A stretch of DNA of 64,000 nucleotides from the NCBI GenBank assembly GCA_947561395.2, contig OX387183.1, positions 32,352,853 through 32,416,852 on the forward strand. The letters run 5' to 3'. This DNA is from Buxus sempervirens. Its lineage: Eukaryota > Streptophyta > Magnoliopsida > Buxales > Buxaceae. Of this stretch, positions 4,226 through 62,523 are shown piece by piece. The number at the start of each line of letters is the position of its first letter. Position 1 is the stretch's first letter. The notes under the pieces are model-generated. The model was not told the origin of the DNA, ran no database searches, and was given only the letters and a program-made list of their open reading frames with translations. The position numbers and the translations under genes are program-made.

Positions 4226-4474
4226 GTATCCGACCGAATATATCGGATACACATACTTTTGTGTGTTTCCGACACTATTCATCGGATACAAGGAGATCTG
4301 CCCGCGAGATTCGCGCGGATTCGACGACAGATTCGCTCAGAAAATTGTATTTTCGAAATGATTGTGTTTGTATCCGACATAAAAAATGTTGGATACAAAG
4401 GAAGCCTAGTGTATCCGACATAAAATGCCGGATACAAAGAAGGTGTAGTGTATCCAATATTAAAGGCCGGATAC
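4226..4474 (+). repeat. Palindrome array, type I, in LTR-H upstream of TATA
   Basis: Five modules of about 25 bp with arms of the form GTATCCGA and CCGGATAC. Module starts are 4226, 4265, 4370, 4411 and 4450, so steps are 39, 105, 41 and 39 bp. The TATA box lies only about 12 bp downstream of the last module. Confidence 0.85.
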
Positions 4475-4485
4475 ATTAAGTTTTC

Positions 4486-4493
4486 TATAAAAA
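4486..4493 (+). promoter_or_regulatory. TATA box of LTR-H
   Basis: TATAAAAA in the context CTATAAAAAGGC, directly after the palindrome array. It probably drives LTR transcription to the right. The C-rich leader that follows ends in a candidate splice donor near 4781. Confidence 0.6.
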
Positions 4494-5604
4494 GGCAACA
4501 GCAGCCCCATTTCGGGGGTTGGCTTTTCTTTGGCTGTTTCCACCTTGTCTTCCCCTTTGCACCTGCTCCGAAAACCCTTCACCTTGCCCCCCTTTGGCTC
4601 CCTAAACCCTCAAGCACAACCTTAAGCCCATTCCACCTCTTGTTTCTCTCTTCCTCTCCATTTTCACCCAAGCAAGGAGGAGGTTACCGGCTGTCGGTGG
4701 CTAAAGGAGGAGCTCCAGCCACTTCCCTTGCTTCAAAGGGAGCTCAAGCACACCACAAGAAGGGTTTGAAACCCCAAGGTATGGCTTCTTGTTAAGTTCC
4801 TTACATATATATAAAAATGGAGGTTTTCTAAGCATGTTAATGAGCATAGTTTTCTCCCTTGCTGTAAGTCGGTTCAAGTGCTTATATGGCATGTATCATG
4901 TTCTTATTACCACCACATGAGGATCTCCTAGGTAAGATGAGCATCACGTTTGGCTCCATGGGAGGATGAGAGGTGACTCCTCACATTTTCTTCTAGTCAT
5001 TTTAACTACTGTTTTGAGTCCCTTTTTTGGTGGCGGGGAGCATGTTCCCCCTAGCATGATCCATCCATTGTACCCCTTATTAATCTCCCCCTCTTTCCCT
5101 TCTCTAAAATAGTTGCGCTTCGATGATCCTGTGTTTCCTTTAGGCATGAAGTTGGTAGTATGACATGCTTGTCCAAGTTCGACCATGCATGTATATCCAT
5201 TTGAAATGCTGTAGGTACACTCACACACCCTCCACTTTTCGTGCACACAATATGTGGATGTTAATGCATGTTCACCATAGTCCGGAAGCATGTAGGATAG
5301 GTTTGATTGTTGTTTTCTCACCACTTTATTTGCTTACTGTTGTGGGACCGGGAAGAACTAAATAGGGACACCTAGGTCCCTGTTCATCTGCTGGAAGTAT
5401 CCCAAGAATGAGAGGAGGCAAGACCTCAAGCCTCCTCCCCCTTGCTTGAACCACTAAAGTCACAAAAGAAGGCAAGAATGAGGTTTCCCCCCTCTCTCTG
5501 TACCAATGTGGGCTCACACAGGAGCCCACGCAATCCCTGGAACATCCTAGGAAGCCTAGAAACCCCACCCCAATGCAAAATCCGAAAAAAGGGTTTTTGT
5601 ATGT

Positions 5605-5708
5605 TGATCCGGCAACTCAGGTCGGATCAACAGAGCCTCATTTGTAGCCGGCAAAAGATGCCGGATACACAGAGCCTTGTGTGTAACCGGCATCTTAGGC
5701 CGGTTACA
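5605..5708 (+). repeat. Second palindrome array inside LTR-H
   Basis: Three modules starting at 5605, 5644 and 5683, exactly 39 bp apart. Arms vary (TGATCCGGC, GTAGCCGGC, GTAACCGGC), and each right arm changes largely to match (GTCGGATCA, GCCGGATAC, GCCGGTTAC). Confidence 0.8.
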
Positions 5709-6570
5709 CTACCAGAATGTTATTTTTGTTGTTTTGTGATCTTGTGCTGTTTTGTTGGTTTGATTGATCAATCCGGATGAACCAGAAGGGTTTTCGGGTC
5801 ACCCGGAAACCCACGATGGGCCATGGACCGACCCGGTCCAAATTGATTCCTGGTGGGCCTTCCAACAGGGCCCACCAAGCCCGGCAAGCTTACTTTTGCT
5901 AAACAAAGATAACCAAATTGATTGAATGGGCCAAACCCATTGGAGGCCCATCAAGGCCTAACTTGGGGCATGCATGTTTAGTTAAGTTGTGGTTTGGCCG
6001 AGACCACAGGTAGGGCCTATCGGGCCCACTAAGCCCATTGAACCCAACAAAGATTAGGGCACCCAAGCCCTAACTTAGGAAGTCTTGGGCTTTCAAGCCC
6101 ATAGCCCAGGTAAAGGGCCCTAAGCCCAAAGCTTGGTCCATTTTGGCACAGTTAATCAAGATAACTCAAAATCACTTAGCAACCATCTGTGTGGCCCGCT
6201 CGTGGGCCCACAAAGTAATCCCGGCCCACTTGGCATGGAAATCATTTAACCTTAAACCTGAATTTCAAATAAATCAATTCATTTAACCAAAGCCCAAAGG
6301 GCCTCTCAAGTTTAGACTGAGGCCCACCAGGGGAACATGTGGGCCGCACTTGGACCATCAAGGGATCCGTGGGCCTTCCAACGGGGCCCACCTAATCAGA
6401 CTCACTTCACCGAATAATAAAAGATAAAAACAAGTAAAGGGACCCACAGCACTCAGGTAATCCCACCAGACTTAACCAAATGGCATGCTAGATTAGGAAT
6501 CGGGTGAGTGAGAGACCAAAAGTTGACTCAAACCAAGAGAACTGTGGGACCCGTCATTCGACGGGGTGGA

Positions 6571-6595
6571 CTGGGGTGTCTACGGACTTCCCCAG
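6571..6595 (+). other. Conserved LTR hairpin, LTR-H version
   Basis: CTGGGG pairs with CCCCAG around a 13-nt loop. It sits in the same relative position as the hairpins in LTR-A, LTR-B, LTR-C and the Element 2 LTRs, upstream of the GGTGGCGACTCC motif. Confidence 0.55.
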
Positions 6596-6747
6596 ACCGC
6601 AACCGAGAACCTACTTAGAATCCCAAGCTGCAGACTAAGCCTTAATAGACTAACTTAGGCACCCAGGTGTCCGCCTGTATCCCATCAGGTGGTGGCGACT
6701 CCAAATTCCCATTTTTACCCAGTGCAACCCTGAAACAGGTGCGCACA

Positions 6748-7262
6748 ACCTATTTATGTCGAAATGAGAAATCAGCAAAGTAAAAAATTGAACCTTCGAG
6801 CTCACCCACAGTGGATATCCGATGGATGCTTGGAACGGCAATGAGGAGGCTTGACCAAAGATGGTCAAAGCAATAGTCTCGACAGTAGCTCGAAATAAGG
6901 AGGAGAGGAAAGTCACCGGAGAAATTGGAACAGTCGCCCAAGAATCAGGGAGGCAAGTCGACGCCGGAGAAGCAAGGACTCGCCGGAGAATGAGAGAGTC
7001 GCCAGAGAACAAGAAAGTCGTCGGAGAAGATAGGAAGCACCGGAGGAGTCATGCGGAAGACCGGAGAAAAGTATGCGGACGCAGAGGAATTAGGTTGGAA
7101 ATGCGAGCAGAAATGGAGGAACTGTTCGTGGCCGCGGTTAAGAAGGACCCCAAAATCCGTAAAAGCAATATGGGCAATAGGCGCCCACAAAGGTAATGCG
7201 GTCAATTGCGCTCGTATTCAAATTACGGGCATGACTTGCTCGCAATATAAATACGGGCAAAG
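6748..7262 (-). promoter_or_regulatory. Promoter and noncoding leader exon of the Element 1 PMD gene
   Basis: Read on the minus strand, a type II palindrome array (7209-7259) is followed by a leader rich in TCTCCGG/CTCCGGCGA units, which matches the leader of the Element 2 PMD gene at about 39390-39700. The leader ends at the LTR-H insertion, where AG|GT marks a candidate splice donor. No clear TATA box was found. Open frames here on either strand are by-products of the GAGTCGCCGGAGAA-like repeats. Confidence 0.5.
7209..7259 (+). repeat. Palindrome array, type II, at the Element 1 PMD promoter
   Basis: Two 23-bp modules starting at 7209 and 7237, exactly 28 bp apart. Right arms are TACGGGCA; left arms are decayed CGCTCGTA and TGCTCGCA. 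Confidence 0.75.
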
Positions 7263-7604: not shown

Positions 7605-7706
7605 TGTAGACACCCCAAATTGCACTACAAAATGAGAAAATAATTGAAAATATTAATTGGGATTTGAAACAGGTAAAAAATGCATGAAATTCAATAATTT
7701 AAGCAT

Positions 7707-7813
7707 TGCCCGTATTGTATTTACGGGCTAACCGCGCCCGAAATTTGTATACGGGCACGCAGCACCCATAATAAGAATGCGGACACCACTTGCCCGCAAT
7801 GTAAATACGGGCA
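7707..7813 (+). repeat. Palindrome array, type II, in LTR-A U3
   Basis: Four 23-bp modules starting at 7707, 7735, 7763 and 7791, exactly 28 bp apart, with arms TGCCCGTA and TACGGGCA around a 7-bp AT-rich loop. The third module is decayed. The TATA box is about 200 bp downstream. Confidence 0.85.
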
Positions 7814-8012
7814 CAGGAGGTTTGTGCGAATTTGATCCTTGCTCGATTTCTAAGCCTTATCTTCAGTCCAATATATCTTTAGATAAGCGAATTATCTCTT
7901 TTATTCGTTCGAAATATCTTTGTTGGCCATGGATGGCATTATCTCTGTTTTCAATCCAATCTAGAGGATTTTGGATATATCCCTCTGGACCAGCCATGCC
8001 CCTGGGTTTGCC

Positions 8013-8020
8013 TATAAATA
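8013..8020 (+). promoter_or_regulatory. TATA box of LTR-A
   Basis: TATAAATA in GCCTATAAATAG, the same context as in LTR-C (32349) and in both Element 2 LTRs. A splice donor CCAG|GTAAGT follows about 100 bp downstream at 8116/8117. Confidence 0.75.
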
Positions 8021-8292
8021 GATGGCAGATCCTCAAGCAAAAGGCCATGAAAATTTGAAGTCCAATGAGCTCCAAGAGAAGAAAGGAATCCCTGCTGCTG
8101 TGCTTGCTCAATCCAGGTAAGTCCCTTTTCCCTTGTATTTTCTGTCTTCAATTCTAGAGATAATAGGATCTTCTCCATTGCTGTTGTAGACACCCCAAAT
8201 TGCACTTCAATGTAAGAGAACAGTCAAAAAGAACTTTAAATGTTTTATTTAAGCCTTAACATAGGTCAAACACTCAAAAATAATCAAAGGTG

Positions 8293-8516
8293 GTGCTAAC
8301 CGCACTAAATATGCGGTTAGCACGGTTGATGTTCATGCTTCTCGCGTGAGCTGCCACGTGGCTTTCGGAAGCTTCTGCCGTTGAGCCACATTGACAGCAA
8401 TCATGACGAGCGTAACTGAATTGGAACCGCCCTATATTTGCGGTTGAGGTGAATTTGCATAGAAACCGCACATATAGTGACGGTTCTGTGGAAACCGCAC
8501 TGTGTATGCGGTTTTG
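8293..8516 (+). repeat. Palindrome array, type III, in LTR-B
   Basis: The first module (8293-8323) has perfect 12-bp arms GTGCTAACCGCA and TGCGGTTAGCAC around a 7-bp loop. Further modules with AACCGC and GCGGTT-like arms begin near 8425, 8464 and 8493, at steps of 39 and 29 bp. The second arm of the 8464 module is degenerate (GACGGTT). Confidence 0.8.
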
Positions 8517-9674
8517 GTTGTTTCGGGGATTTGCGAAATGACTCGATCTCTGAGTCTTATTTACGCATATTACCTCTCTCTCAGGGACTTGAACTCCCTA
8601 TTTCACCCCCGAATGAATTTTAGAACTTCATGAGATAGTTTCTCTTGATTTCCAAGTGTTTTGGTCGAATTCACTTGCACACATGCACCAGTTTGGCTTT
8701 CTTCTCCAAAATTTTCAAAACAGGGCAGCATTTGTGGCTTGTCTTAGAATGCTCATAACTTCATCCTCCGGATGAATTTTTGAGTGATTCCAAAGACATG
8801 TGATAGATGAGTTGGCCTACTTTATATCTGGAAAATTTCGTTTACTTTATGGAGCCAATTTTTGACACCATTTGTTCAAAGTCTGTAAGTTAGTTCAGCC
8901 CAGATTACTGAACTTGCCGCTTTGATGGTGCACCATTTGCTCAGTTTTAATCCGTTTCGAGTGATTTCAGTTTCTGGTTTTTCCTTGAAAAGTCGATTTT
9001 CATTTCCAACTGGTTTCAGCAGATTTTGATCTGATTTGTGGCCTGTGTGCTTGATGGACTCAGAGCTGCTCTCTGGTATAGTCCAGAGCTAATCTGTGGT
9101 CTTCTAAGCCTGTTCAAGCAAGCACACAAGCCACATCTGGATGGAGTTTGGTGTGAGGTTTATCTCTTTGGAAAGGTGGCACAACATACTCCATCCATGC
9201 AAATTTTCATGGATTTTTATGGAGCCAAACTCCACGAATAAAGTTTTGAAAATGCCTACTCACCACTTTTTCTAAGTTATAACATCAGATTTCCGTAGAG
9301 CATTTCTCTCTCGTTTTAAATAGGATTGAGCTGAATTTTTTACTGCAGACTCTACTATGTACCAGCTTTCTAATGGCTTTGGCTTCATGTGATTTGGATT
9401 TAAATTGAGCAATATGTGGTTAATCGAAGCTTTCAAGTTCTTATAATCTGATTTTTCCAGATTTGCCTTGAATTGGTTTTCTTCAAACTTTACTTAGATT
9501 TTCCTTCATTCATGAAGTTCTAAAGTGGTATATCCATGAGGAGAGTCCGAATTCATCGGATTGCTCATGTGGAATAATCACATACATTTTGCTTATTTTA
9601 AGCATCTCTTGTTTTTTTATTTATTAGCAAACAATCCTTAGCATAAGCAAACATGTGGCAACCGTCTTAGACGG

Positions 9675-9709
9675 ATGAGTGGGGGTGCCTAAAACCTTCC
9701 CCCGCTCAT
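9675..9709 (+). other. Conserved LTR hairpin, LTR-B version
   Basis: ATGAGTGGGGG pairs with CCCCCGCTCAT (one G-U wobble) around the loop TGCCTAAAACCTT. Position 5 is a G-C pair here and A-T in LTR-C, a compensatory change. Confidence 0.6.
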
Positions 9710-9898
9710 AAATAATTCCCCTTACCTGATCTCTGGATTTTTTTCCTTATAGCTACTTGGGCTCTATTTGGCTTTTATGAACCCTTTGGTGTCCATTCAC
9801 ACCTTAACTTTGATGGTGGCGACTCATGACATTTATTGATCCCCGCGTGACGATATCGTAAGTCATCCTAGATGACATTTTCCATGTCTCACAACTGT

Positions 9899-11123: not shown

Positions 11124-13215
11124 GCTATCAACACTAATTTCAAGTAAATCTTCACAACTATAATTGTATTCACCATCCCTAGCCCAGTGCGAAGTTTTTC
11201 GAATTGTAACTATGTGAAGCTTCCAACCAAATTCCTCAATCACACATACAAACTCAGCAAAAGTTCATTTCCTACAATAATATGAAATCAAATCAAAAGA
11301 AAGAAATGATACAAAAAATTTATACATAAACCTAACAAAAATAAGAAAACATATGTTACATGACTTCTTCTAACCAATATAAGACATGCAAAACCTTTAA
11401 CTTTCGTAATGAATTCATTATGAGACCGAGCAACTTCTCAACTCTTACATCAAACAACGTAACCCAAAGTGCCTAATGTTATTAGTGACTTTATTTCATA
11501 TTCTGCCACCGAAATGTAACAAGACAAGCAAAGGTCAACAAGGACACAAACCTATGCTTGTATCTTTCTTGGTAACATGCACGCTTGGCAAATCATGTAC
11601 CAATAATAAGCTGTAATTTTGCATGGCAATCTAAATATGCAACATACTAAGGATCTCACTGAGTGTTAATTGACACGATCCACGGCTTACACTCAAAAGC
11701 GTTGTTCTAGTAACACTAACAGTACTAAACGTCAATAACATGAAAAAGTAAGCATGAATTATTCAATCAAAGCAGCCCAAAAATTCACGGTTGGCTCCAA
11801 TTTCATAATCTCATCAATAGTTAGACGCTCATACTCCAGTTTAACAACCTTGAAAAGAACATCTTGTCTAACTTGAATTTCAACTTGGTTAGCTATTGCC
11901 CTAGTGAAAGAAATAAATATAAACAAATAATAACTGAGTTTAAAACCTTCATTTAATTTGCAAATATCTATTGCACAAAACCCAAAAATGAAACAATTAC
12001 TTAATTTGATTATTGTAAGAAATAAGTATTACCATGATCACAATTGGTCAACTTCGGCTAAAATAGGGTTAACCATAATAGAAGACAGGTACACAATAGA
12101 TGAGGATCCCATTATTTAAAAAAAATAAAACAGATAATAAACTTGTCCAAGATATTAAAAAATGACATATTAATAATAACCAAATAAAACAAATGAGCCA
12201 TCAATATTACCATATTCCTTAATGACTCGCAACTTAGACCCAACAACAATAACTTCTCCAAGTATAGCAACATCTTTCAAAAATAAATCCATTGAAGAAA
12301 ACTTTTCCAACAATATTACTTGTATTTATGCATCTTGTCTATATATGACAAAATAAAATAGTAAACAAGCAAAAAAAAATAATTGAAATTATAACCAAAA
12401 ACCACAAATGAATAAAAAATAGATATTCTGATAAGCAATGTGCTTACGACATGTCCATGATTGCAGTATCACACTTTACAACCATCAGCCTTGTTAAACA
12501 TATTTCTTCACCAACCTTTACAAAAATACCAACATTTATAAAAGAGAAGAAACCTTCAAAACAAAAAAAACATATAGTGAAAAAAACACAACTACAAATT
12601 TAAAAAAGCTTGCTAATGCTACATACTTACAAGAAATTCAAATTCCAATTCAAAAAGTTCACTTAATTTAACAAAGTTGCACTTCATGGTAAGGATCTCC
12701 ACGGCCTTAGGTTCAACACTTATAACATCACTATTCTTGGGTAATAATACCTATACATTGTATCACTAACATTGTATTTTGCATTTGCCTTTTGGATAGA
12801 ACCATTTATAATCTTACACCACTATTTGGCTGTAGCTAAGGTTCAAACAACTTTATGTCCCATTAAACATTGATAACTGCATTTTTGTACCCTAGAGAAT
12901 AAAATAAACACAAGATTAAATATATATTTATAATCATTAACATTTTATAAAATATCAGAACACAATAAAATAAGAAATAATACGACCTCAACCATAGTTC
13001 AAAATATTGTTTCGTATTGTGCTTATTGCATAATACTTATCATGAATTGTGATTGTCGGTACGATACACGGTTATGTTTCATTTGCCTGGCCTTATCGTG
13101 CGATAAGGGTATTGTACCCACTTTATCGATCGATACAATCGGTAAAAACCAAGAAAAGGAAAAAAAAAAAAAAAGTAAAGAAAGGGTGAAACAGACTGGA
13201 AGAGAGAGGAGAAAA
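11124..13215 (-). pseudogene. RPA1-like (replication protein A large subunit) remnant, left copy
   Basis: Reverse complement of 18413-20590, roughly 85-90% identical by eye. On the minus strand it holds decayed OB-fold segments like those described for the right copy, with stops and AT-rich spacers. Its 3' side stops exactly at the end of LTR-A, so Element 1 inserted into it. RPA1 paralogues are frequent in plants and are carried by some Helitrons. I see no Helitron ends, so whether this is a captured gene or a decayed paralogue is open. Confidence 0.5.
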
Positions 13216-13351
13216 AAGATAGAGGCGAGCAAAAGAGAGGAGATGAAAAGTAGGAGGGAGGGAGGAGAAAAGCATGGGGAAAGAGAGGGAAATGATGGAG
13301 GCAAGAGAAATAGAGAGGGATGAGCACTGGGTTAAGGCACTGGCCGCTAGA

Positions 13352-14860: not shown

Positions 14861-16035
14861 CAGAGACCGCTTATATGGTTAGTGTAAGGAATATTTTGTA
14901 TTGGCTTTATTCCGTGTCAAAAAAAAGTTGTATTTATAATGGTCACAGTATTTGGGTTAGGATATAAGTGTTGCGGTTCAAACGGGGTTAAAGTCGGAGT
15001 CAAATTGATGAAGATACGACCAACGTTCGATGAGCGTTCTCCGAACGTTCGAACGATCAAGTTTTGCAGAGAAACCCGAGAGTAGCGTTCGCCTTACATT
15101 CGCTAGCTGTTCGAACGATCATGCTACACAGAGAAACCCGAGAGCAGCGTTCGCTTCACGTTCGCTGACCGTTCGACCGTTGGTGTTCTACAGAGAAACC
15201 AGAGACTAGCGTTCGACCAACATTCGCTGGCCGTTCGAACGATCAAGTTCTGCAGAGAAACCCGAGAGCAGAGTTCGCCTCACGTTCTCTGGCCATTCGA
15301 ACGAGAAGAGGAAAAGTGAGTTTCTGTATTGAACGTTCGAGCCGCGTTCGCTGAGCATTCGAACGATCATTAAGAATCTTCAGTTTTAGAATTCCGATCT
15401 TTTCTGATTTGTTTCCTTTTCTGTTTCTACCTTCTTCTAATCTATATAAGGAGTGTCTAGACTATTGTTAGGGTTACCCAAGACGTTTTAGAAACCCTAA
15501 AATCGTGTGTGAGAGCAAGAGTTCCTTCTTCTCTTCCTTCTTCTTTGAGCCATCAAAACCATCTTTCATCTTTCCTTTCTACCTTGGAGTTCCAGGTTGG
15601 AGAGTTTGCACGTGGGAGTTCCTGCGGTTGTTGAGCGAGTTCGTTTGGCGCTTCACTAAGAAGATATCCAGAGTTCTGGATCGTTGCAAGGGTGCAAATC
15701 TTAAGAGTTCTTCAGATACTTACATTGTGTATCAGAGTCAGTATTGGGTCGTCTGAACCACTATTGTAAGTCTTCTTCTTATAGTGATTTTCAGAGGTGG
15801 AACCTTATCGCCCGGAGGGTTTTTCTCTTTGAGAGTCCTCTTAGAGTTTTCCCTTCATCACCAAAATTGCTTGTGTTGTCTCTTCCTTATTTTGCAATTT
15901 TGTGTGATTGATTGTTAATTGCTCAGACTTGTGCATGTCTATTAATTAAGAACTTGTTTTTAATTAGTAGAAATTTTATTTCGCAATCGGTTTCACCTAT
16001 TCACCCCCCCTCTAGGTGTTATAGAGTCTAAACTG
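14861..16035 (+). mobile_element. Probable LTR remnant, copia-like
   Basis: Contains a 62-bp tandem array (15047-15302), a TATA-like CTATATAAGG at about 15443, a leader-like stretch, and ends near TTCACCCCCCCTCTAGG, which is typical of the end of many plant Ty1/copia LTRs. Termini and target duplication were not found, so the limits are approximate. Confidence 0.4.
15047..15302 (+). repeat. 62-bp tandem array with self-complementary GTTCGAAC
   Basis: Units start at 15047, 15109, 15171, 15233 and 15295, exactly 62 bp apart. Each carries GTTCGAAC (or a one-base variant), GCAGAGAAACCCGAGAG and GCGTTCG. The array is upstream of the TATA-like motif at 15443. Confidence 0.85.
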
Positions 16036-18412: not shown

Positions 18413-20590
18413 TAAGGTGCCTCTATCTTTTTCCTCCTCTCTCTTCTATAACTCTGTTTCACCCTTTCTTTACGTTTATTTTTTTTATTTTTTTGGATCT
18501 TACCGACTATATTGATCAATACAGTGGGTACAATATCCTTATCGCATGATAAGGCCAAACAAATGAAACATAATGGTGTATCGTGCCGACAAGCACAATA
18601 CACAATAAGTATGATGCAATACGCATGATACAAAATGATATTTTGAACCATGGTTGAGGTTGTATTATTTCTTATTTTAGTATCCTGATATTTTATACAA
18701 TGTTAATGATTATAAATATATATTTAACCTTGTGTTTATTTTATTCCCTAGGGTACAAAAATACAGTTAACAATGTTTAATGGGACAAAGTTGTTTGAAC
18801 CTTTACTATATCCAAAAAGTGGTGTAAGATTACAAATGGTTCTATCCAAAAAGCAAATGCAAAATACAATGTATGAGGTATTATTACCCAAGAAAAGTGA
18901 TGTTATAAGTGTTGAACCTAAGGCCGTGGATATCCTTGCCATGTAGTGTAACTTTATTAAGTTAAGTGAATTTTTTGCTTTAGAATCTGACTTTCTTGTA
19001 GTTATGTAGTATTAGCAAGCTTTGTCAAATTTGTAGCTGTGTTTGTTTCACTATATGTTTTTTTTTTTTTTTGCTGTAAAGGGTTTTTCTCTTTTGTAGA
19101 TGTTGTTGGTATTTTTGTAAAAGTTGGTGAAGAAATATGGTTAACAAGGCCAATGGTTGTGAAGTGTGGTACTAAAATCATGGACATGTGGCAAGCACAT
19201 TGCTTATCAGAATATCTATTTTTTATTCGTTTGTGGTTTTTGGTTATAAATTCAATTTGTCTTTTGCTTGTTTACTATTTTATTTTATCATATACAGACA
19301 AGATGCATCAATACAAGTGACATTGTGGGAGAAGTTTTAATCAATGGATTTATTTTTGAAATATGTTGCTATACTTGGAGAAGTTATTCTTGTTGGGTTT
19401 AAGTCGCTAGTCATTAAGGAATATGGCAATATTGATAGCTCATTTGTTTGATTTGGTTATTATTAATATGTTTGGTTTTTTAATATCTTGGACAAGTCTC
19501 TTACCTGTTTTTTTTTAAATAATGGGATCCTCATCTACTATATACCTGTCTTCTATTATAGTTAACCCTATTTTAGCCGAAGTTGAACAATTACGATCAT
19601 GGTAATGCTTTTTCTTACAATAATAAAGTTACGTAATTGTATCTTTCTTTGGGTTTTGTGCAATAGCTATTTGAAAATTAAATAAAGGTTTTAAACTCAA
19701 TTATTATTTGTTTATTTTTATTTCTTTCACTAGGGCAATAGCTAACGAATTTGAAATTCAAGTTAGACAAGATGTTATTTTCAAGGTTTTTAAACTTAAG
19801 TATGAACGTCTAACTATCAATGAGATTATGAAATTGGAACCACCTGTCAAAGGTAAATTTTTGGGCTGCTTTAATTGGATAATTCATACTTATGTTTTCA
19901 TACTATTGACGTTTAGTGCTGTTAGTGATGCTACAACACTTTTGAGTGTAAGCCATAGAACGTGTCAATCAACACTTGGCAAGATCCTTATTATGTTGCA
20001 TATTTAGATTGCGATGCAAAATTACAGCTTATTAATGATACATGATTTGCCAAGCGTGCATGTTACCAAGAGAAATACAAGCATAGGTTTGTCCGGGTTG
20101 ACCTTTGCTTGTCTTCTTGCATTTAATGTATAAATAATATGTTCTTTTATTGAAATAATGTCTTTGAATTCTTTCAATAGCAGAATACGAATTAAAGTTG
20201 CTGATAACACTAGGTCACTTTGGGTTACATTGTTTGATGCAAGAGTTGAGAAGTTGCTTGGTCTTACAATGAATTCATTACAAAAGTTAAAAATGTTTTG
20301 CATGTTTTATATTGTTTAGAAGAAGTCATGTAACATATGTTGTTGGATTTTTGTTAGGTTTATGTATAATTTTTTTGTATCATTTCTTTCTTTTGATTTT
20401 ATTTCATATTGTTGTAGGAAAGAACTTTTGCAGAATTTTTACACGTGATTAAGAAATGTGGTTGGAAGTTTTACATAGTTACAATTCGAAAAACTTCACA
20501 CTTGGCCAAGGATGGTGAACACAATTATAGCTGTGGAGATTTACTTGAAAATGGTGTTGATAACGTAAATTATATTCCATCTCTAACCAT
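18413..20590 (+). pseudogene. RPA1-like (replication protein A large subunit) remnant, right copy
   Basis: Exon-like islands match RPA1 OB folds. They include VDVVGIFVKVGEEIWLTRP (near 19095), IQVTLWEKF followed by VAILGEVILVGFKSLVIKEY (near 19310-19420), a segment IANEFEIQVRQDVIFKVFKL (near 19740), and IRIKVADNTRSLWVTLFDAR with EKLLG (near 20190-20255), which matches the C-terminal RPA1 OB fold. RPA1 binds single-stranded DNA in replication and repair. Stops and frameshifts, and the lack of a full zinc ribbon, argue for decay; some gaps may be introns. It is an inverted copy of 11124-13215. Confidence 0.55.
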
Positions 20591-36502: not shown

Positions 36503-36507
36503 CCTAA

Positions 36508-39310: not shown

Positions 39311-39389
39311 GTATCAGGTGTAGCATACCGGATACAAATGGCCTTGTTTGTATCCGGCCTGATTCACCGGATACACAAGGTTTTATAAA
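39311..39389 (+). promoter_or_regulatory. Promoter of the antisense PMD gene: palindrome array and TATA box
   Basis: Two type I modules start at 39311 and 39350 (39 bp apart; CCGGATAC right arms, GTATCCGGC left arm in the second). TATAAA follows at 39384-39389, about 10 bp after the array. A TCTCCGG/TCCGACG-rich leader continues to a splice donor CAG|GTAGCT at about 39758, and the intron runs to TGTAG just before the ATG at 40672. The arrangement is the same as at the DUF7745-like gene. Confidence 0.65.
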
Positions 39390-43726: not shown

Positions 43727-43887
43727 GTATCCGGCATATCAGACCCGATACATTGAGTTTTCTTTGTATCCGGTATGATATGCCGGATACGCTTAACACT
43801 CTTTGTATCCGGTATTCTTCACCGGATATGAATAAAATTCTTTGTATCCGATCTGATGTGCCGAATACATTAAAACATGTTATAAAT
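43727..43887 (+). promoter_or_regulatory. Promoter of the antisense DUF7745-like gene: palindrome array and TATA box
   Basis: Four type I modules start at 43727, 43766, 43805 and 43844, exactly 39 bp apart, with left arm GTATCCGG and right arms CCCGATAC, GCCGGATAC, ACCGGATAT and GCCGAATAC. TATAAAT follows at 43881-43887, and the ATG is about 110 bp further on. No intron is needed before the start codon. Confidence 0.75.
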
Positions 43888-43997: not shown

Positions 43998-45676
43998 ATG
44001 GAATCCGGATCATCTTCTGCCTTGCCATTGTCTATCCACACAGCCTCCCCTGCAAAACAGCTTTTTAGATCAAAACCACTTAATCTCACTAGGTACAACC
44101 CTGTGGACTCCTTTTACGCTAGATGGGTTAACTCTATGACCCTGGATGAGGAGAGGAGATGGGATTCCAACCATCTAGGCCACCTTTTGCTTATCCCGAA
44201 GGTTCCCTTCAAATGGGAGATTATTGAAGCCATGATTGGCCATTGGGTACCCGACCTTAACCTTTTTCGTTTTGGGGACCATGAGATGACCCCAACCATT
44301 GAGGAGGTTGAAACTATCTTGGGCCTGAGGTTTGATGAGAAGGTAGTGAATCCACCCCTTAGGCCCAGCTACAAGAAGGAGGCTTCTACTTTCTTGGGCA
44401 TAGGGAAGAAGGACTTAGGGGACTCTGACACCCTTTTGACATTGTGTAAGTCTTTTTTGACTGAGAAGCTCTTGAGAGGGGAAAATAAGGAAGTTAGGTT
44501 TAATGCCTTGACTCTGATAGTGGTCAACCAGCTACTTTTCCCACGAGATGATGATGAGGTAGACTTGGCTCTGATCTCAGTGGTATGCCAGGCTAGGGAG
44601 CGGGAGAGGTTGGCCCCTATGATCTTGGCTAAGATGTTTCAGGCCCTGACTGACTGTTACAATAGGAGGTCAAAACGCTTCTTAGCATGTGCTCCGCTCC
44701 TGCAGGTAAATTTTTTTCCCCTTTTTTTTTTTTTTGCTTTTTTTTTCTTTTACAATGTTGATATATCTCTCTTTCTTTGCAGCTTTGGCTACTTGATCAC
44801 TTGAGTCAGATTGAGGAGATCAATCGACACTTCTTCCCCAGCTTGAAGGTTCATATCTTGATGAGCAACCGGGGGTGTCCCGACATTCCAGGGGGTAAAC
44901 AGGGCTGGTTTACTTTCTTGGGTTCACTCCAGGATGATCAAGTGAGGTGGCCTGGTACCTACCAGCCCAATGCAGAGACCGTGATCAGCTTCCGAGACCG
45001 TAATTTCCTGATTCTAGCTGGCCTAAGACATGCAGTGCTTTATCTTCCTTTGCGGGTCCTTCGTCAGTTCAGAGCGACCCAGGGGATTATAATCCCAAGT
45101 GGGTATGAGGATCATCTAGGGCCCCTTTCTCCAGCTACCATGAAGCTGAATGCCTGGTTGATGAGGGAGTGGTCCTATGTTCGCTTCATGCGTAGCCCCG
45201 TCTTCTCAGAAGCCCATGTGAAGGATTATCTTTTCTGGATCAAGGAGCAGATACAGAGTCAGGCCCCCGTACCCGAAGATCCTCCTGCAGTCTTTACTCC
45301 TACTTATGAGGATATTTTAGAGTCTAAGAGAGCTTTCCACAAGCGACTTCAGTAGATATGGGTACGGGAGGCCCAGGAGCTCAGGATACAAGGCCTTTAT
45401 CTGGAGAGGCAGCTTGAGGAGTAGATATCACGCCGTACTGCCATGGAGGAGAAGTTGGAGGAGCAGAGGTAGGCCCGTCGCTTTGAGGTCCGGATGATAC
45501 GGCAGAAGTACCAGGATACTTTAGCCAGCCTCAGGAGTATGCGGATCAGACATGCCCTTTCAGATGAGGTCATCTTCTTCCTGAGTGATCCCGCTGCAGA
45601 GGGGGCTTCTGGAGTTATTGCAGCTCAGGCAGCTTGGATTCGAGAGCTTGAGGAGCGGCTAGGAGACAGAGATTAG
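43998..45676 (+). pseudogene. Antisense DUF7745-like gene of Element 2, two exons, three internal TAG codons
   Basis: Start MESGSSSALPLS at 43998. Exon 1 runs to 44705 (236 codons), intron 44706-44782 (GT-AG), exon 2 runs to 45676. The protein has the DUF7745/plant-mobile-domain-like pattern: MIGHWVPDLNLFRFGDHEMT, then PTIEEVETILGLRFDE, then LLFPRDDDEVDLALI and LACAPLLQ|LWLLDHL at the exon junction. The reading frame stays open across exon 2 except for TAG at 45353, 45422 and 45470. Each replaces a likely Gln in a coiled-coil-like tail (EAQELR..., LEEQ), after which the frame continues 68 codons to the final TAG. A product ending at 45355 would have 426 residues. Function is unknown; such genes are found with gypsy elements in many plants. 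Its 3' end converges on pol. Confidence 0.75.
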
Positions 45677-50267: not shown

Positions 50268-51106
50268 TTAAAAAAAGTTTTTCAGGAGCGGGGGAAATTG
50301 TGCAAACCCAGAATCCGATGCCATCATCACCGGGTGGGTACTGCCCTTTTCTGCTATAGGGCCCAGTCCAAATACAACCTCATCCGGAATCTTCATTGCT
50401 GTCCAGTCAATGAACGGCAGGTCCATGTCTGCTCCTGTCTTTTCACCTTCAGTCATGGTGAAGAAAGCCCCAACCTCTTCAGAGTAGTCTGTCTGCTGCT
50501 CTGGCTGTGGCCCAGGCCCATTTGCTGCTTCCAGTATTGAAGATGGGTTGTATGGTTGCAAGGCCGAAACAAAAGGCTTTTGAAATGGGTTGATTTTGCT
50601 GTAGGGAGGCTTGGACTGGTCCATAGGAGGAGATATTTGGATTGTATAGGAGGGTTTAGGGAAATTTTCCCTTAAGTGAGGGAGTTTTCCTTTACTTCTT
50701 TTCTCTCCTTCTTCATGCTTCATCCTTCTCCAACCTCTGGCCTTGAAGCCCAACCCTACTTTAGGGATCAGTTTCTTGGCCGTGATTGGCTCCACCATTC
50801 CCTGCAAATTGATTCCCAGGCCTTTTCCCGGGTGAAAGTGGTATTTTTCCATCACTTTCTTCACCATTTTCTCAGCAGTAGTCCCCTTATTTTCTTTTTT
50901 CTCACACCCCCCAGGTATGAAATTAACCGTTTCGAATTGAAACGAGTGTAATGCAATCTTGTCAACAGTCAAGTCTACATTTATTAAGGGTACATCATGT
51001 GACACGATGGGAGGCACCAAGTTCTCAGCTAGGACTGTTATCACCCTTAGCCCTCTTATGTATTTCACCCTTTGGTAGAGCGTGGATGGTATTGCCCTAG
51101 CCGAGT
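50268..51106 (-). pseudogene. Element 2 pol, protease-RT linker with G-patch-like motif
   Basis: Open frame of 266 codons from 51068. It follows the protease C-terminus (the frame resumes after LTR-G) and contains YHFHPGKGLGINLQGMVEPI and KVGLGFKARG, a G-patch-like glycine pattern known in Tat/Ogre-type polyproteins. It is followed by a Pro/Ser-rich stretch and an acidic region, and the frame ends at 50268 by a stop just after FAQFPPLLKNFF. G-patch motifs bind nucleic acid or helicase partners; the role here is inferred from family knowledge. Confidence 0.65.
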
Positions 51107-51111
51107 GTATC

Positions 51112-54100
51112 TGTAATGCCCTGAATCCGGGTCATTTTTTTTTCTCATTTTGACTCGGATCAAGGCATTATTAACTTGTGGTACATTACAATCAGTTCAA
51201 ATATAAGGAAATAAAGAACTAAGATTTATCAGAGTACTAGGAAGCTTAAATCATTTATTAGAAGCTGAGTCATCCGATTACATTAACTACTCAAATGAAA
51301 GGCAACTACAAATTTAACTAACTCTTAATATCCTACAAAATCATCTATTACGATTCCAATAAAATAAATACAGCTATATAAAATCACCCTACTCTTTTCA
51401 TATGGAATTTCTAGACTTCAACCCACTATCTGTCTAACTCGTGGCGTCCTCTCCAAGATAACCTGAAAAGTAGAATATGAAGTAGGGGTGAGATACAACT
51501 ATCTCAGTAGGTAACACTATGCATGTAGAAAACAATTTATATAGTTAGGGAAATTAACAGTGGTTTCATGATCGGTAAAATAATCAAGTAATCAAAGTCA
51601 GTGAGATAAACGAATAATCACGATAAAACAAACATTTAATCAGTGCCCGAATTTAAAAGAAGTTAATCATATGTGTTTCATTTCAATTTAAAGGACAATG
51701 TATTATATTTCACATTCCCATGGTTTCTGGTTTATTTTCTGTAGTGTCTTCTTAAGAGCAGTTCCACATTTATTCATGATTCCATAATATTCCATTTTAA
51801 CAGTTCACATAAATCATAACAGTTCTGTTCAATTATGACATTTCAATATTTCCTTTTTAATAACAATCCATCAACCTGAGAATCAATCATCATATCAGTA
51901 ATAAAAGCCAACCTTCAAGTAGTAGCCTATCTCTACCACAGGATGTAAACACCTAGTATCCACACAAACTCCGCAGGAGAATGCACATCTCTAAGACTAC
52001 AGGTACCCCCTGCAGGAGACAGCATAACTCTACCGCAGGATGTGAACACCTAGCATCTACCTCTACCGTAGGAGATAGCTTCCTCACCTTCCAGTGGTAA
52101 CTCACACACCCATCCTCCATGTGGGATGCAATCGCGCATAATCACATCTCCCCCACATGAGGTATCTCCCCTGTAGGATGCAATCCATCGGAAATACATC
52201 TGCCCCACAGGAGGTAATGAATCTCTCCCGCAGGAGGTAATGTCTCCGCCACCAAGCGGGTTATCTCTGCCACCAAGCAGGTTGGGTCTCCGCTACCAAG
52301 CGGGTTATCTCTGCCACCAAGCAGGTTAGGTCTCCGTCACCAAACGGGTATCTCTGCCACCAAGCAGGTTAGGGTCTCCGCCACCAAGCGGGTTATAATC
52401 TCTGCCACCAAGCAGGTAATAATCTCTGCCACCAAGCAGGTAATATACAATACATCTCTGCCACCAAACAGGTTATTTATAAAACTGGCCACCAAGCCAT
52501 TGTTCAATCATTCACATTCCAATATTGTTTATAATCATAGTTCTTCCATGTTCAATCGGTAATCCAAAGTCTTGTTCCATAACCAGTTCATTAGTGTGTA
52601 CTCATATTGATTATGGGATTATCTTAATAATAGAAGACTCAAGTGGTTAAATATCTAAGATGAACCTTTTAGTATAATTGGCCTTCAAAGACACCTTAAG
52701 AATAATCTTAGAGAAGTGTTACAAGTGGTGGAAATCCAAATAACTTTTTTTTTATAATGATTTGGGACTAAGAATGTCGTAAAGTTCTCAAAATACATTT
52801 TGGATGAGTGGAATAGTCTTAGGATTCCCAATAAGGTCACCATACCAAAAATCAATCGATTCCGAAACAAAAAGTTTCGGACCCCAAAAGTATTTTAAGT
52901 CTAGTTAAAAACGTTGACTTTTTGGTATATAATTTCTCTAGACAAATCTACAAGGAGTTTCGGGCTCAAATTTTGGTTGTAGTCTATTGAAGGGTAAACA
53001 CATCTCCTAGAATTTTATGGGCTCCTGAATCACTCATCTGGGTATTAAACCCAAACCGGGCTTTTTGATAAAAAAAACCGGGATTTAGGCATGAACTGGA
53101 AAGTTGACTTTTTATTGGTTGGGAATTAGACCTCGGAAGTATTTTTATTGGTTCCAAATGGGGGGTAAAACCTTATTTACATGTAAAGACTTAAGTAAAT
53201 GGAGCAATAAATACACAGGACATTTACTTAAATGTCTTTCATGTAATAAGGGTGCTATGCGAGAGGCTTGGGTTGTCTGGGAAAGGGTTGGAGAAGAAAA
53301 GGGAATGAAAAACTGTCAAAATTGCATTTTTTGCTAGAGCGCCTAGGATCGCTCAGGATCGCCTAGGCCGTCCCTGGTCAGCGGTAGTTCAAATTCGAGC
53401 GCCTGCGGTCCATCTTCAAGCGATATTCGGCGGTCTTAAATTTTACACTAGCGCCGAGGATCGCCAAGCGCAGGCGAGCTCGGCACTCTAACCAAAATGA
53501 CGAACCGAGTTTCTACACATCAAATTTTTGTGTTCTAATCGCTTCTAAAATTCATATAAATTAATATCAACCAATATACACATATTTACAACATAGAAGA
53601 TCATGCAATCGAATCGAATAATCTCATAAACACAAAATAATCGTTAAAACGGAGTGCCACCTACCTCCGTCCGCTCAAATCCTTTCTTCTTCCAACCAGA
53701 GACTTCCTCTCCTCTTCGCAGGCAAGAGACGTTCCAGGAACGATGAGAAACCAGAGATATGCCCTCTTCCTCCTTCTTCTCGGTCTCCCTTTCTCTCTCT
53801 CGTTCTTCTTCTCTTCCGCCGAAACCTCCAAACTTCAACGCCCAAGACGCCCTACGAATGCAACTAAAATATTAAACCCTATTTTATTCTTCCCTGATCC
53901 CACGCATCTCCCTAGGGTCAAGTTCCATACTTACCCATCCATTAGACTTAATAAGGACTGTTAATCCACTCTTTCCTTGATATCTCACGATCCAACGGTC
54001 AAATCTGCGTCAAACTCCGGATCTCCTCTATCAGTGTGATCATCTATAATTATAATTAATATCCTTCAACAAAATTCTCCTCTCCTCGACTTCAGGTTTC

Positions 54101-57387: not shown

Positions 57388-58212
57388 CTTGGAATATTTT
57401 GGGGCTTCCAAGTGTCCCCCAAATTTTTGGTTTTGATTGGTTCTCGTGATCAAACAAAGGTTTTTGGAATATTCTGAGGCTTTCAAATGTCCTAAAAAAT
57501 TTTGACTTTGAGTGGTTCTCGTGACCAAACAATGGTTTTTGGAATATTCTGAGGCTTCCAAATGTCCTAAAATTTTTTGACTTTGAGTGGTTCTCGTGAC
57601 CAAACAAAGGTTTTTGGAATATTCTGAGGCTTCCAAATGTCCTAAAAATTTTGACTTTGAGTGGTTCTTGTGACCAAACAAAGGTTTTTGGAATATTCTG
57701 AGGCTTCCAAATGTCCTAAAAATTTTTGACTTTGAGTGGTTCTCGTGACCAAACAAATGTTTTTGGAATATTCTGAGGCTTCCAAATGTCCTAAAAATTT
57801 TTGACTTTGAGTGGTTCTCGTGACCAAACAAAGGTTTTTGGAATATTCTGAGGCTTCCAAATGTCCTAAAAATTGTTGACTTTGAGTGGTTCTCATGACC
57901 AAACAAATGTTTTTGGAATATTCTGAGGCTTCCAAATGTCCTAAAAATTTTTGACTTTGAGTGGTTCTCGTGACCAAACAAAGGTTTTTGGAATATTCTG
58001 AGGGTTGCAAATGTCCTAAAATTTTTTGACTTTGAGTGGTTCTCGCGACCAACAAAGGTTTTTGGAATATTCTGAGGCTTCCAAATGTCCTAAAAATTTT
58101 TGACTTTGAGTGGTTCTCGTGACCAAACAAAGGTTTTTGGAATATTCTGAGGCTTCCAAATGTCCTAAAAATTTTTGACTTTGAGTGGTTCTCGTGACCA
58201 AACAAAGGTTTC
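57388..58212 (-). repeat. 75-bp minisatellite in the Element 2 leader
   Basis: About 11 tandem copies of a 75-bp unit (GGAATATTCTGAGGCTTCC, TTTGACTTTGAGTGGTTCTC). Most copies are over 95% alike; the copy nearest 57400 is diverged. Because 75 is a multiple of 3, two frames stay open for more than 200 codons, giving 25-residue repeats. This is not evidence of a protein. Confidence 0.92.
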
Positions 58213-58492: not shown

Positions 58493-58634
58493 GTATCCAG
58501 CATAATATACCGGATAAGGCTATGGCTTACTGTATCCGGCACAGTTAGCCGGTTACACGCATAGGTCTTTGTAACCGGCAATATATGCCGGATATGAATA
58601 AAAGTCTTCTTAACCAACCTGAGTTGCCGGTTAT
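58493..58634 (-). repeat. Palindrome array, type I, in the gag leader
   Basis: Four modules start at 58493, 58532, 58571 and 58610, exactly 39 bp apart. Arms alternate GTATCCGGC/GCCGGTTAC and GTAACCGGC/GCCGGATAT. The array is between the minisatellite and the PBS, so it would be transcribed in full-length RNA. Confidence 0.88.
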
Positions 58635-60338: not shown

Positions 60339-60357
60339 GTCCCCAGCAGAGTCGCCA
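60339..60357 (-). promoter_or_regulatory. Primer binding site of Element 2
   Basis: Two bases after the 5' LTR end, the minus strand reads TGGCGACTCTGCTGGGGAC, the form expected for pairing with a tRNA 3' end. Tat/Ogre elements often use tRNA-Arg, but I have not assigned the tRNA. The first nine bases also occur inside the LTRs, as in GGTGGCGACTC. Confidence 0.8.
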
Positions 60358-62259
60358 GTTGTGAGACATGGGAAAAATCACCGGGATGATTTCCCCTCCG
60401 TTAGCAAACGGGGCTCAACGTAAAAAATGGGAGAGTCGCCACCATTCAGAATTTGGAGGTGAGAATGGACACCAAAAGATTCAAAGATACGCAAAAGGGG
60501 CTAAAAAGCGAATTCTAGGGTAAAAAATAACCCTACTTGAAAATCAAATCCAGAGATGGGTAAGGGGATTAGATTATGAATGGGGGAAGGTGTTAGGTAC
60601 CCCCATTCACCCACACAAGGTGGTTGCCAAGTGTTGTTCATGCCAAAAAATAAGAAAGCTTGCTAAAAGTCATTAAAAACCTTGAAAAAGGACAAATGTA
60701 TGATATCTTCACATGAAAATCCAAATGGATTTTAGATCCTCTTTTATGTCAATATCACTTCTGGAATATCAACAAAAATGGAAATCCAAAGCAAAAGTTG
60801 CACAAAACCAAGTTGAGTTAAATCCGGAAAATTCGGTGAAAAGTAATGCCATTTGTCTTGAAATTATTCAAAATCAATTTTAAATTAAATCAAACCAAAT
60901 CCATTTGAAAGATCATGGTAAATAAGCGATTCATGCAAAATTTCAAGTTGATCCGGTTGAAAACCTAGGAGTTATGCTCCTTTAAAGTTGTTGCTGGGGA
61001 TGATTAAAAGTGACAAGTGGGCAACTTTGGAAAATCACCTAAAAACATCCACTTCATAAAAATCCACGAAATTTGGTGTGATTGAAGTCTGTATGGCCAA
61101 CTTTCAGATGAAACTAGCCTCATACAAAAATTCATTCGGATGTGCCTTGGGTGGTCTCCCGAACAGGCCCCGAAGATCACAGATTTACCCAGAAAAGTAC
61201 TGATGAGCAGTTTTGAGTAAATCTGTTACCAATAATACAAATGGAGTCAAAAAATTATGAAACCAACTGGAGTTAAAATTAGACTCATAAAGGGGTTCCC
61301 AGAAACAAAAATCACCCAAATCGGATTTAAAACGAACACATGGCGCTCAGTCGAAGTGACAAGTTCCGTATTCAGATCAGAACTGACCTCTCAACTTCGA
61401 CAGAAAGGTGTAAAAAATCCACTTGATAGAAATTAATGAAATTTGGTAGGCATAAACTAGACAGCCTCACCTTTCCCATGGTTCTGGAATCACTCCAAAA
61501 TTCATCCGGACGATGAAGTTATGAGTGTCCGAAGTCGGGGTACAGTTGCTGTCAAGTTAGGCCTTCTTTGGAGAAAAACAATTCAAAACTGTGACAAAGT
61601 GTGTGCAATTCGTGCAAGATAAATACAAATCCTTTAAAAAACATTCAAAGACATTCCAGAATTGATTGAGGCCATTTATTTCAGATTTGTCACAACGAAT
61701 GTAATAAATCCCCAAATGTGAGCCTATCCCGCCAAAATCGTCCTATGTATGTGCAAGTGTGAAAAATCATACAAGAACAATGTAGCAACATAGCATGCAT
61801 TCATATTCATCAAAATAAGGTTTTAAAACAACCTAAGGTTCCGTTCCATTATTGTTTCCCTTAGTTCTCTCTCCCCGTTAAACACGGTTCTTCAAGATAA
61901 TCTTGGTGTACTTTGAATATGAAATGGTTTTCAATCATCCAAAAGGCTTATGCAAGATAGGTTCTAGCACTAGGGTCAATCCCCAGTCTCGTTTCTCCTA
62001 GATCCCGCCTTCACGTTTTACGGCTAGGGGGAGTCTTGAGATACTTTGAGCTAGGGAAGGGTTTTCATACACATAGAAGGCCTTATTCTACAGAAAGGTA
62101 GAAGAAGAGATCTAGATCTAGAATATAAAATGAAGAAAATAAAGAAGAGGTTTGAGGCTTACCTGGGGTTCTGGAAGCAATCCGGCAGCAGTTCCCTTCT
62201 TCACTCGGAGCTCTTGGATCTCCAACTTCTTGGCCATTTGCTTGAGGAGGAGCCACCTA

Positions 62260-62267
62260 TTTATAGG
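62260..62267 (-). promoter_or_regulatory. TATA box of the Element 2 5' LTR
   Basis: TATAAATA on the minus strand, about 155 bp downstream of the palindrome array and about 100 bp upstream of the splice donor. Confidence 0.75.
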
Positions 62268-62420
62268 CAAAGGCTAGGGTTGATGGTAGACAGAACCTAA
62301 TGTCTAGAGCCCACCAACCTTAACCCTAAGGCTGTTTCCGAGATTTCCCCTCATTTAATGAGGGACATGATGGTAAAAAGTGAAATCTCTCGGAAAACCC
62401 TAATTTTGAGCAAAACTTAT

Positions 62421-62523
62421 GTATCCGGCATATCAGGCCGGATACACAAGGGCCTTAAGGTATCCGGTATTGTCCATCGGATACAAAGAGAGGTACTTGT
62501 ATCCGGCCTGAGTTGCCGAATAC
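62421..62523 (-). repeat. Palindrome array, type I, in the 5' LTR
   Basis: Three modules start at 62421, 62460 and 62499, exactly 39 bp apart. The first has arms GTATCCGGC and GCCGGATAC. Confidence 0.9.

Follow-up and report, generated by a model that had tools for sequence, protein, structure and literature searches.

Repeated CCG-N11-CGG dyads in the long terminal repeats and putative antisense promoters of a Tat/Ogre-type retrotransposon and its neighbours in Buxus sempervirens

Repeated motif (RM) boxes are known from the Sireviruses, long terminal repeat (LTR) retrotransposons of the Ty1/copia superfamily, 12 of 13 having a CGG-CCG core (Bousios et al. 2010, PMC2829016). Here we describe arrays of interrupted palindromes (dyads) with a CCG-N11-CGG core in 64,000 nucleotides of Buxus sempervirens (assembly GCA_947561395.2, contig OX387183.1, positions 32,352,853 to 32,416,852), hereafter the window. 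The arrays lie in E1, a Tat/Ogre-type element of the Ty3/gypsy superfamily, in a second element, E0, and in further LTRs; all data come from this one 64-kb window and its five LTR families, and what is said of cited papers refers to the portions of their text covered here. An earlier note on this DNA had given the modules as matching no named plant element motif. The repeated palindromic CGG-CCG boxes of Sireviruses are in fact a close precedent and, by analogy, seem to be the closest known relatives of the dyad arrays. Alike are the many palindrome copies, the family-specific flanks, and the clustering in the LTR before the TATA box, with a further occurrence ahead of an extra gene (ENV). The Citrus Sirevirus box AATCCGGCTWRCCGGATT even resembles the type-1 arms defined below (PMC2829016). 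Sireviruses differ in belonging to Ty1/copia and in having ENV as the extra gene, whereas E1 has the gypsy domain order, and its extra open reading frames (ORFs) are antisense and contain a plant mobile domain (PMD). The Sirevirus core is CGG...CCG with a short gap; type 1 has both orders (CGG-N9-CCG inside CCG-N11-CGG) and types 2 and 3 just CCG...CGG. In LTRs of the window, repeated dyads lie upstream of TATA boxes. A fixed repeat period is absent from the Sirevirus description in the portions covered (PMC2829016), and function is putative in both systems. The comparison would suggest that palindromic CGG/CCG boxes have arisen or persisted in both superfamilies of plant LTR retrotransposons.

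The VANC targets of VANDAL transposons are likewise short, tandem, family-specific motifs in a non-coding part of a transposable element that encodes an extra protein (PMC5735166, PMC10398659). The VANC motif, YAGTATTAY, is however arrayed in a single orientation, and the text covered does not call it a dyad; the element is a DNA transposon, and binding is demonstrated there and predicted here (PMC5735166). We regard the VANC arrays, by analogy, as the closest system in logic: a motif array in the non-coding part of an element with its own extra protein is found in E1, and in weaker form in E0. Tnt1 boxes and other U3 enhancers of plant LTRs are likewise activator boxes that occur in several copies ahead of the TATA box and are in part symmetrical; they differ in sequence, are under stress control, and are not known to occur in antisense gene promoters as well. 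The symmetry of Tnt1 box I is mentioned in PMC2829016.

The Tat-clade elements Retand and Ogre resemble E1 in their long region between pol and the 3' LTR, their tandem repeats, and their antisense ORFs (Retand, with the predicted DNA-binding TRP28) or PMD ORFs (Ogre) (PMC11963269, PMC6317226). They differ in that no motif common to LTR and antisense promoter was seen; in the covered text of PMC11963269, 'palindrom' and 'promoter' occur only in the reference list. Judging by titles and the starts of abstracts among the open-access matches listed, no dyads of this kind have been reported in Tat/Ogre elements. Antisense genes occur widely among Tat/Ogre and Retand elements (PMC11963269, PMC6317226). 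A lineage-specific motif of fixed geometry that links the sense LTR promoter with the likely antisense promoters would be a probe for their function.

Dyad modules and half-site types

The type-1 module was defined as a 25-bp unit with a GTATCCGG-like left arm, a 9-bp loop and a CCGGATAC-like right arm. The earlier note had listed 23 such modules in runs of exactly 39 bp. Direct printing of the sequence confirmed a unit of this form at 23 of 23 positions, with modules 39 bp apart in every run; the most degenerate is 58610 (TTAACCAA...CCGGTTAT). A scan of the window for GTATCCGG-N9-CCGGATAC gave 21, 24, 28 and 34 matches at up to 2, 3, 4 and 5 mismatches of 16, respectively, as compared with 0, 0, 0-2 and 4-9 in five first-order Markov simulations, so that several of the 34 matches at five mismatches are due to chance. 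Scanned singly (up to 1 mismatch), half-sites numbered 36 left and 40 right, of which 15 left and 13 right had no partner at 17 bp. There were 37 left-to-right pairs 8-60 bp apart, 20 at 17 bp and 15 at 56 bp (17+39), and 12 of the 13 right-to-left pairs lay at 22 bp. Two further pairs at 39 bp (4226/4265 and 4411/4450) were added to the earlier list; the module at 4370 is a 27-bp variant with a loop 2 bp longer. The type-1 pattern was also searched in viral_contigs, where it matched 8 stretches at one site each. The arrays, their hosts and the two antisense ORFs of E1 are as follows (positions in the window; 'unstranded' where no strand was assigned).

36508-62625, minus strand: E1 (Element 2 of the earlier note), 26.1-kb Tat/Ogre-type Ty3/gypsy element
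36508-38799 and 60360-62625, minus strand: LTRs of E1, ends and flanks read in the sequence
38567-38697, unstranded: array in U3 of the E1 3' LTR; 14-bp remnant at 38567, full modules at 38595, 38634 and 38673; TATA box (minus strand) 156 bp beyond
62421-62523, unstranded: array in U3 of the E1 5' LTR; modules at 62421, 62460 and 62499, one 39-bp unit fewer than in the 3' LTR; TATA box (minus strand) 156 bp beyond
39311-39374, plus strand: array at the putative promoter of ORF A; modules at 39311 and 39350; TATA-like TTATAAA 9 bp beyond
40900-43522, plus strand: antisense ORF A, open frames in pieces (with presumed introns); PMD (PF10536) in 40900-41925; arginine/glycine-rich ends
43727-43868, plus strand: array at the putative promoter of ORF B; modules at 43727, 43766, 43805 and 43844; TATA-like box 12 bp beyond
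43998-45355, plus strand: antisense ORF B, open frames in pieces; DUF7745/PMD; ATG at 43998
58493-58634, unstranded: leader array of E1, lying between the 5' LTR and gag, with modules at 58493, 58532, 58571 and 58610
LTR-c, 3' end at 33765, 5' end not found, plus strand: LTR carrying the type-1 array at 32041
32041-32182, unstranded: array in U3 of LTR-c; modules at 32041, 32080, 32119 and 32158; TATA box 167 bp beyond
LTR-d, about 3635-6743, ends not firmly set, unstranded: probable solo LTR with two type-1 arrays
4226-4474, unstranded: first array of LTR-d, in U3; modules at 4226, 4265, 4370 (27 bp), 4411 and 4450; TATA-like box (plus strand) 12 bp beyond
5605-5707, unstranded: second array of LTR-d; modules at 5605, 5644 and 5683 with changed arms TGATCCGG, GTAGCCGG and GTAACCGG
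LTR-a, unstranded: probable 3' LTR of element E0, with the array 7706-7814 in its U3
7706-7814, unstranded: type-2 array in U3 of LTR-a; modules at 7706, 7734, 7762 (degenerate, without CCG) and 7790; period 28; TATA box 199 bp beyond
7148-7260, minus strand: type-2-like modules at the E0 counterpart of the ORF-A promoter; two clear modules (7260, 7232) and two degenerate ones (7204, 7176); period 28
LTR-b, 8185-9893, unstranded: solo LTR with type-3 modules
8296-8515, unstranded: type-3 modules in U3 of LTR-b at 8296, 8423 and 8491, plus a gap-12 module (ACCG at 8465); irregular spacing

LTR-d has in addition a lone dyad at 4022. The arrays had been said to lie in independent LTRs, which holds in part, the arrays at 38595 and 62421 belonging to the two LTRs of one 26.1-kb element.

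Dyads were sought more generally by a scan for interrupted palindromes, with 64 three-base cores at gaps of 3-30 (1,792 combinations) and at least 3 of 4 outer bases complementary. CCG-N11-CGG ranked first of the 1,792, with 23 sites in comparison with 0-1 in five second-order Markov simulations, and the CCG core at the other 27 gaps gave 0-3 sites each. All 23 sites fell within E0, E1, LTR-a, -b, -c or the putative LTR-d, and none elsewhere in the window. When the 34 type-1-like sites (up to 5 mismatches) were masked, CCG at gap 11 retained 4 sites and the remaining gaps 0-1; the four (7706, 7790, 8296 and 8491) lie in LTR-a and LTR-b. Three half-site types thus share the core: type 1 (GTATCCGG) in E1, LTR-c and LTR-d; type 2, with GCCCGTA-like and TACGGGC arms and a period of 28, in LTR-a and the putative E0 antisense promoter; and type 3, with AACCGCA and TGCGGTT arms at irregular spacing, in LTR-b. 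The core is exact in 18 of the 27 type-1 modules, 3 of the 4 in LTR-a and 3 of the 4 in LTR-b.

In both E0 and E1, half-site type and period match between the LTR and the putative ORF-A-type antisense promoter. That the two promoters correspond is indicated by two alignments of their flanks, one of 235 columns at 66% and one of 75 columns at 65%. The second joins the weakly similar CTCCGGCGAC-like stretches at 6869-6943 (E0) and 39469-39538 (E1), presumed to be 5' untranslated region of antisense ORF A. LTR-a and LTR-c differ in half-site type, though they are the closest family pair by U5 (3' 600 bp; 78%, as compared with 60-66% for the remaining pairs). Because E1, LTR-c and LTR-d are all type 1, these sequences are most simply read as a half-site change along the branch of LTR-a; an exchange of arrays is possible.

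An outward TATA-like box was found at 9-12 or 156-199 bp from 7 of the 11 arrays. Three arrays have it at 9, 12 and 12 bp (for 60 bp of one strand, the chance of such a box is 0.052) and four LTR arrays at 156-199 bp. Transcripts would be expected to start some 30 bp past the boxes at 39383 and 43880 (plus strand) and at 38411 and 62265 (minus strand). The CCTGAGTTG end module lies on the TATA-box side of the array in LTR-c and on the opposite side in E1, so that the orientation of the arrays is not fixed.

Arm conservation, symmetry and repeat period

The earlier note had suggested comparing the substitution of arms and loops, and had proposed selection on paired half-sites. Run within the window, the comparison showed an identity between arrays of 0.81 for arms, 0.43 for loops and 0.37 for spacers (269 module pairs). 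'Spacers' include the 14 bases past the last module of each array; 2 of the 27 type-1 modules (62460 and 62499) were dropped from this set as LTR-pair duplicates, and the 27-bp module 4370 was excluded from the identity and symmetry tests. Modules correspond in order between arrays: the E1 LTR loops CATATCAGG, TATATAATA, TATTGTCCA and CCTGAGTTG, an order composed from the modules of both LTRs, stand against the ORF-B loops CATATCAGA, TATGATATG, TATTCTTCA and TCTGATGTG. In these order-matched modules, 60 of 64 arm, 26 of 36 loop and 22 of 56 spacer positions were identical. Arms exceeded loops plus spacers in this and four other order-matched comparisons, which share arrays (Fisher p 2.7e-4 to 6.8e-9 over all five; 2.7e-4 to 1e-6 for the other four).

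Changes in the arms are symmetrical, as in GTAACCGG...CCGGTTAC at 5683 and TGATCCGG...TCGGATCA at 5605. Among type-1 modules, 174 of 200 arm pairs were complementary, as compared with 162 +/- 2.9 when right halves were re-dealt (a fraction of 0.0004 reaching 174); loop pairs showed no such enrichment (36 of 100, with 44.7 expected on re-dealing). For 34 modules of the three types, a test that also omits the gap-12 module of LTR-b and the degenerate E0 modules 7204 and 7176, 137 of 170 outer pairs were complementary. Re-dealing within types gave 123.6 +/- 3.5 (3 of 10000 reaching 137) and across types 93.9 (0 of 10000); types 2 and 3 alone gave 30 of 45 in comparison with 19.4. Of 54 arms, 48 retain the CpG of the core, while the observed/expected CpG ratio of the LTR bodies is 0.27-0.64. 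The better conservation of arms than of loops plus spacers, the symmetry of arm changes, and the core spacing common to LTRs with different half-sites support selection on paired half-sites, as the earlier note had proposed.

Its description of loops as free in sequence and fixed in length needs qualification: the 9-bp loop stands in the listed modules, but that of 4370 is 2 bp longer, and the loop CCTGAGTTG recurs exactly in modules 32158, 38673, 58610 and 62499 and inverted in 5605. This recurrence points to a common descent of the arrays.

Selection on the 39-bp spacing, also proposed, fared less well. Relative to the 5' LTR of E1, the 3' LTR contains one more unit (loop TATATAATA), exactly 39 bp in length, and a full module of the 5' LTR corresponds there to a decayed 14-bp remnant. 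Since the two LTRs of one element are identical at insertion, a 39-bp unit has been gained or lost in E1 since then. Unit duplication alone can therefore keep the period, and the data argue at most weakly for selection on 39 bp. Unchanged spacer length was dropped as an argument, because unit duplication also preserves length, and universal 39-bp phasing is ruled out by the 28-bp arrays of LTR-a and E0. The dyad geometry is a more robust constant than the repeat period.

Possible roles of the arrays

From the observed sites and their positions, the common geometry, the arm-loop contrast, the symmetrical arm changes and the match of types in two elements, we infer protein binding, the dimeric state of the binder, transcriptional regulation, its direction and the antisense promoters; those of ORF A and ORF B are predicted from TATA-like boxes and ORF starts alone. 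We consider it probable that a dimeric, sequence-specific nuclear factor binds the modules as dyad sites, and that their arrays are upstream regulatory elements copied to several promoters of one element. The arrays would act in either orientation as enhancers or as recruitment sites against silencing, having been copied, within one Tat/Ogre element, to the 5' leader, the sense LTR promoter and the promoters of both antisense PMD genes. The factor would contact each half-site through the CCG core and 4-5 flanking bases; facing half-sites would form CCG-N11-CGG, and loop and spacer would do no more than set the distances. Head-to-tail duplication of a unit would have produced the exact repeat of 39 or 28 bp, after which selection would hold the arms, and the flank specificity may have shifted between lineages (GTATCCGG, GCCCGTA, AACCGCA) while the dyad geometry was kept.

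Several points weigh against this interpretation. The case is built on the sequence of a single 64-kb window. The rank of the CCG-N11-CGG core proves little by itself, because AT-rich cores reach 21 sites at other gaps and the highest count for any core in the simulations is 12-16; the evidence is CCG at gap 11 as compared with the other 27 gaps. The core is inexact in 9 of the 27 type-1 modules and in 1 of 4 in each of LTR-a and LTR-b, and it is exact in 0 of the 2 clear E0 antisense modules, whose right core is CGA, not CGG. The concordance of motifs within elements amounts to two elements of two, and the anchor of the E0-E1 promoter correspondence is weak (65% over 75 columns, E 0.009). No outward TATA-like box lies within 400 bp of 3 of the 11 arrays (the second of LTR-d, the E0 antisense promoter and LTR-b), and the closest to the E1 leader array is 279 bp off, on the plus strand. 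Types 2 and 3 were found partly through arm complementarity, which biases the symmetry upward, and the within-type result comes mainly from the 25 type-1 modules. Modules were detected by arm similarity and decayed ones may be missed, which flatters both the arms and the core CpGs; we judge, however, that this detection bias alone is insufficient for 94% arm as compared with 39% spacer identity in contiguous arrays.

As to the binder, a host transcription factor is a serious candidate, although we would stop short of expecting it; the arrays would then be ordinary enhancers for stress or tissue, for which Tnt1 and ONSEN are examples, and the factor presumably an AP2/ERF, 1R-MYB, GARP or LBD protein. 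Plant LTR U3 enhancers with known binders use host factors, and the type-1 arms hold TATCC and CCG cores of the kind that host factors bind. Sirevirus boxes, moreover, mostly matched stress-related PLACE sites (PMC2829016). A single fixed factor, however, would fix the flanks, which here vary between lineages of one genome at constant dyad geometry, and within one element the LTR and the antisense promoter show the same change of flanks. Such changes could still be due to a family of host factors.

It is less likely, though worth considering, that the binder is the antisense PMD/DUF7745 protein of the element itself, in a self-specific circuit like that of VANC. E1 has two antisense ORFs with PMD matches above the cut-off (ORF A, PF10536 at E 5.6e-13, a curated cut-off; ORF B, DUF7745 at E 7.1e-20 and PMD at E 9.5e-12), and the antisense pieces of E0 match PMD below it (24.7 and 18.8 bits, with a cut-off of 34.9). 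Each putative E1 antisense promoter has an array, as has the matching position in E0, and the motif type is concordant within the two elements. VANC motifs, too, are arrayed in tandem, and the arrays diverge in step with the protein (PMC5735166); when the host PMD proteins MAIN/MAIL1 are mutated, the genes with lowered expression have a promoter motif in common (PMC7156037). DNA binding by PMD is putative, however, and the authors of that study propose an unidentified factor for the motif (PMC7156037). No DNA-binding fold is supported either: sequence searches of PDB with ORF A and ORF B returned 0 solved relatives, and an AlphaFold2 model of the ORF B frame, built on four aligned sequences, had a pLDDT of 40 and was not used. 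For LTR-b, LTR-c and LTR-d, in addition, no coding partner was identified in the window. Searches for homologues of the PMD ORFs gave nothing at E 0.001, although in one of them arginine/glycine-rich words probably swamped the candidate list. A still more specific form, which we regard as unlikely, is an Ogre circuit in which an antisense-encoded PMD dimer would read CCG-N11-CGG at the sense LTR promoter and at its own antisense promoters; the private motif of each lineage (types 1, 2 and 3) would change with the protein and free the element from control by host or competitors.

That the modules are passive minisatellites seems improbable to us. The 39-bp palindromic unit would have been spread and homogenised by slippage, unequal exchange and template switching, without function, and quasi-palindrome correction would keep it palindromic. 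The one-unit difference between the E1 LTRs agrees with this, as do the loops of end modules common by descent and the tandem repeats in about half of recent Retand elements (PMC11963269). Homogenisation, however, would keep loops and spacers as alike as arms, and they are far less alike; on this divergence pure minisatellite drift is not favoured. The CCG-N11-CGG core is also common to LTRs with different flanks and periods, and the core CpGs persist in CpG-poor LTRs, subject to the detection bias described above.

Selection of the units as hairpins, of RNA or cruciform DNA, is very improbable: the arms are complementary and covary, the full-length E1 sense RNA would include the arrays, and on the E1 sense strand alone arm mispairs lean to G-U (6 G-U/U-G and 3 A-C), but a hairpin needs complementarity rather than a conserved arm sequence, loop positions do not extend the pairing past composition, mispairs of three elements together show no G-U preference (10 A-C/C-A and 8 G-U/U-G), those of LTR-c and LTR-d lean the opposite way (7 vs 2), and no Rfam family reached the gathering score, which says little on new structures. 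Hairpins were therefore not favoured, on the loop pairing and the types of mispair. Palindromes have also been described as insertion targets of LTR elements (PMC6911290).

Host elements and other repeats

E1 is flanked by CCTAA on both sides (36503-36507 and 62626-62630), and its LTRs are 96% identical, with 60 substitutions in 2264 aligned bases and 3 indels; it has an LTR pair with short target duplication, as expected in the Tat clade. Its primer-binding site matches exactly what we take to be a tRNA-Arg-type sequence; ARAGORN finds no tRNA genes in the window.

60340-60357, minus strand: primer-binding site, 2 bases inside the 5' LTR of E1

The domains found in E1 are gag, reverse transcriptase (RT), RNase H, RVT_3 and integrase. 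One ORF contains RT_RNaseH (5-61), RVT_3 (116-234), an integrase zinc finger (327-382) and the integrase core (401-498), with RT upstream of that ORF; RNase H ahead of integrase on the same ORF is the gypsy-type order. An additional RNase H (aRH) in the polyprotein, which in angiosperm members lies between RNase H and integrase, defines the Tat clade (PMC6317226), and we read RVT_3 of E1 as this aRH. A PMD ORF is typical of Ogre, though not required, being present in 57% of Ogre elements (PMC6317226), and E1 has PF10536 above the cut-off in two antisense ORFs. The Retand marker Transposase_28 (PF04195) was absent from the Pfam matches of 17 distinct ORFs, a subset of those in the window. Among 120 of 1896 hits, the named relatives of pol were mostly eudicots, e.g., Theobroma, Cicer and Vicia, at ~60% identity; two bacterial-named matches among them are probably contamination. 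Searches of viral_contigs and genome_contigs with the pol protein and the pol alignment gave no confirmed relatives.

E1 contains further repeats and one further domain. In its leader, between gag and the dyad array, a 75-bp unit is repeated head to tail at 57389-58211, in eleven copies that match at 94%. A 44/24-bp tandem repeat (CTCCGCCACCAAGCGGGTTAT-like) at 52242-52441 and an ORF with a G-patch domain (PF01585) at 50268-51131 lie between the gag and RT frames. Outside E1, an inverted repeat of ~2.1 kb (11126-13226 and 18419-20562; 85% identical, with 5.2 kb between the arms) is possibly a separate transposon adjoining the end of LTR-a, and between its arms, at 15046-15304, stand four copies of a CGTTCG-rich 62-bp tandem repeat. 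At 63482-63758, also outside E1, a 277-bp stretch is self-complementary (74% over 305 columns) and may be a small inverted-repeat transposon.

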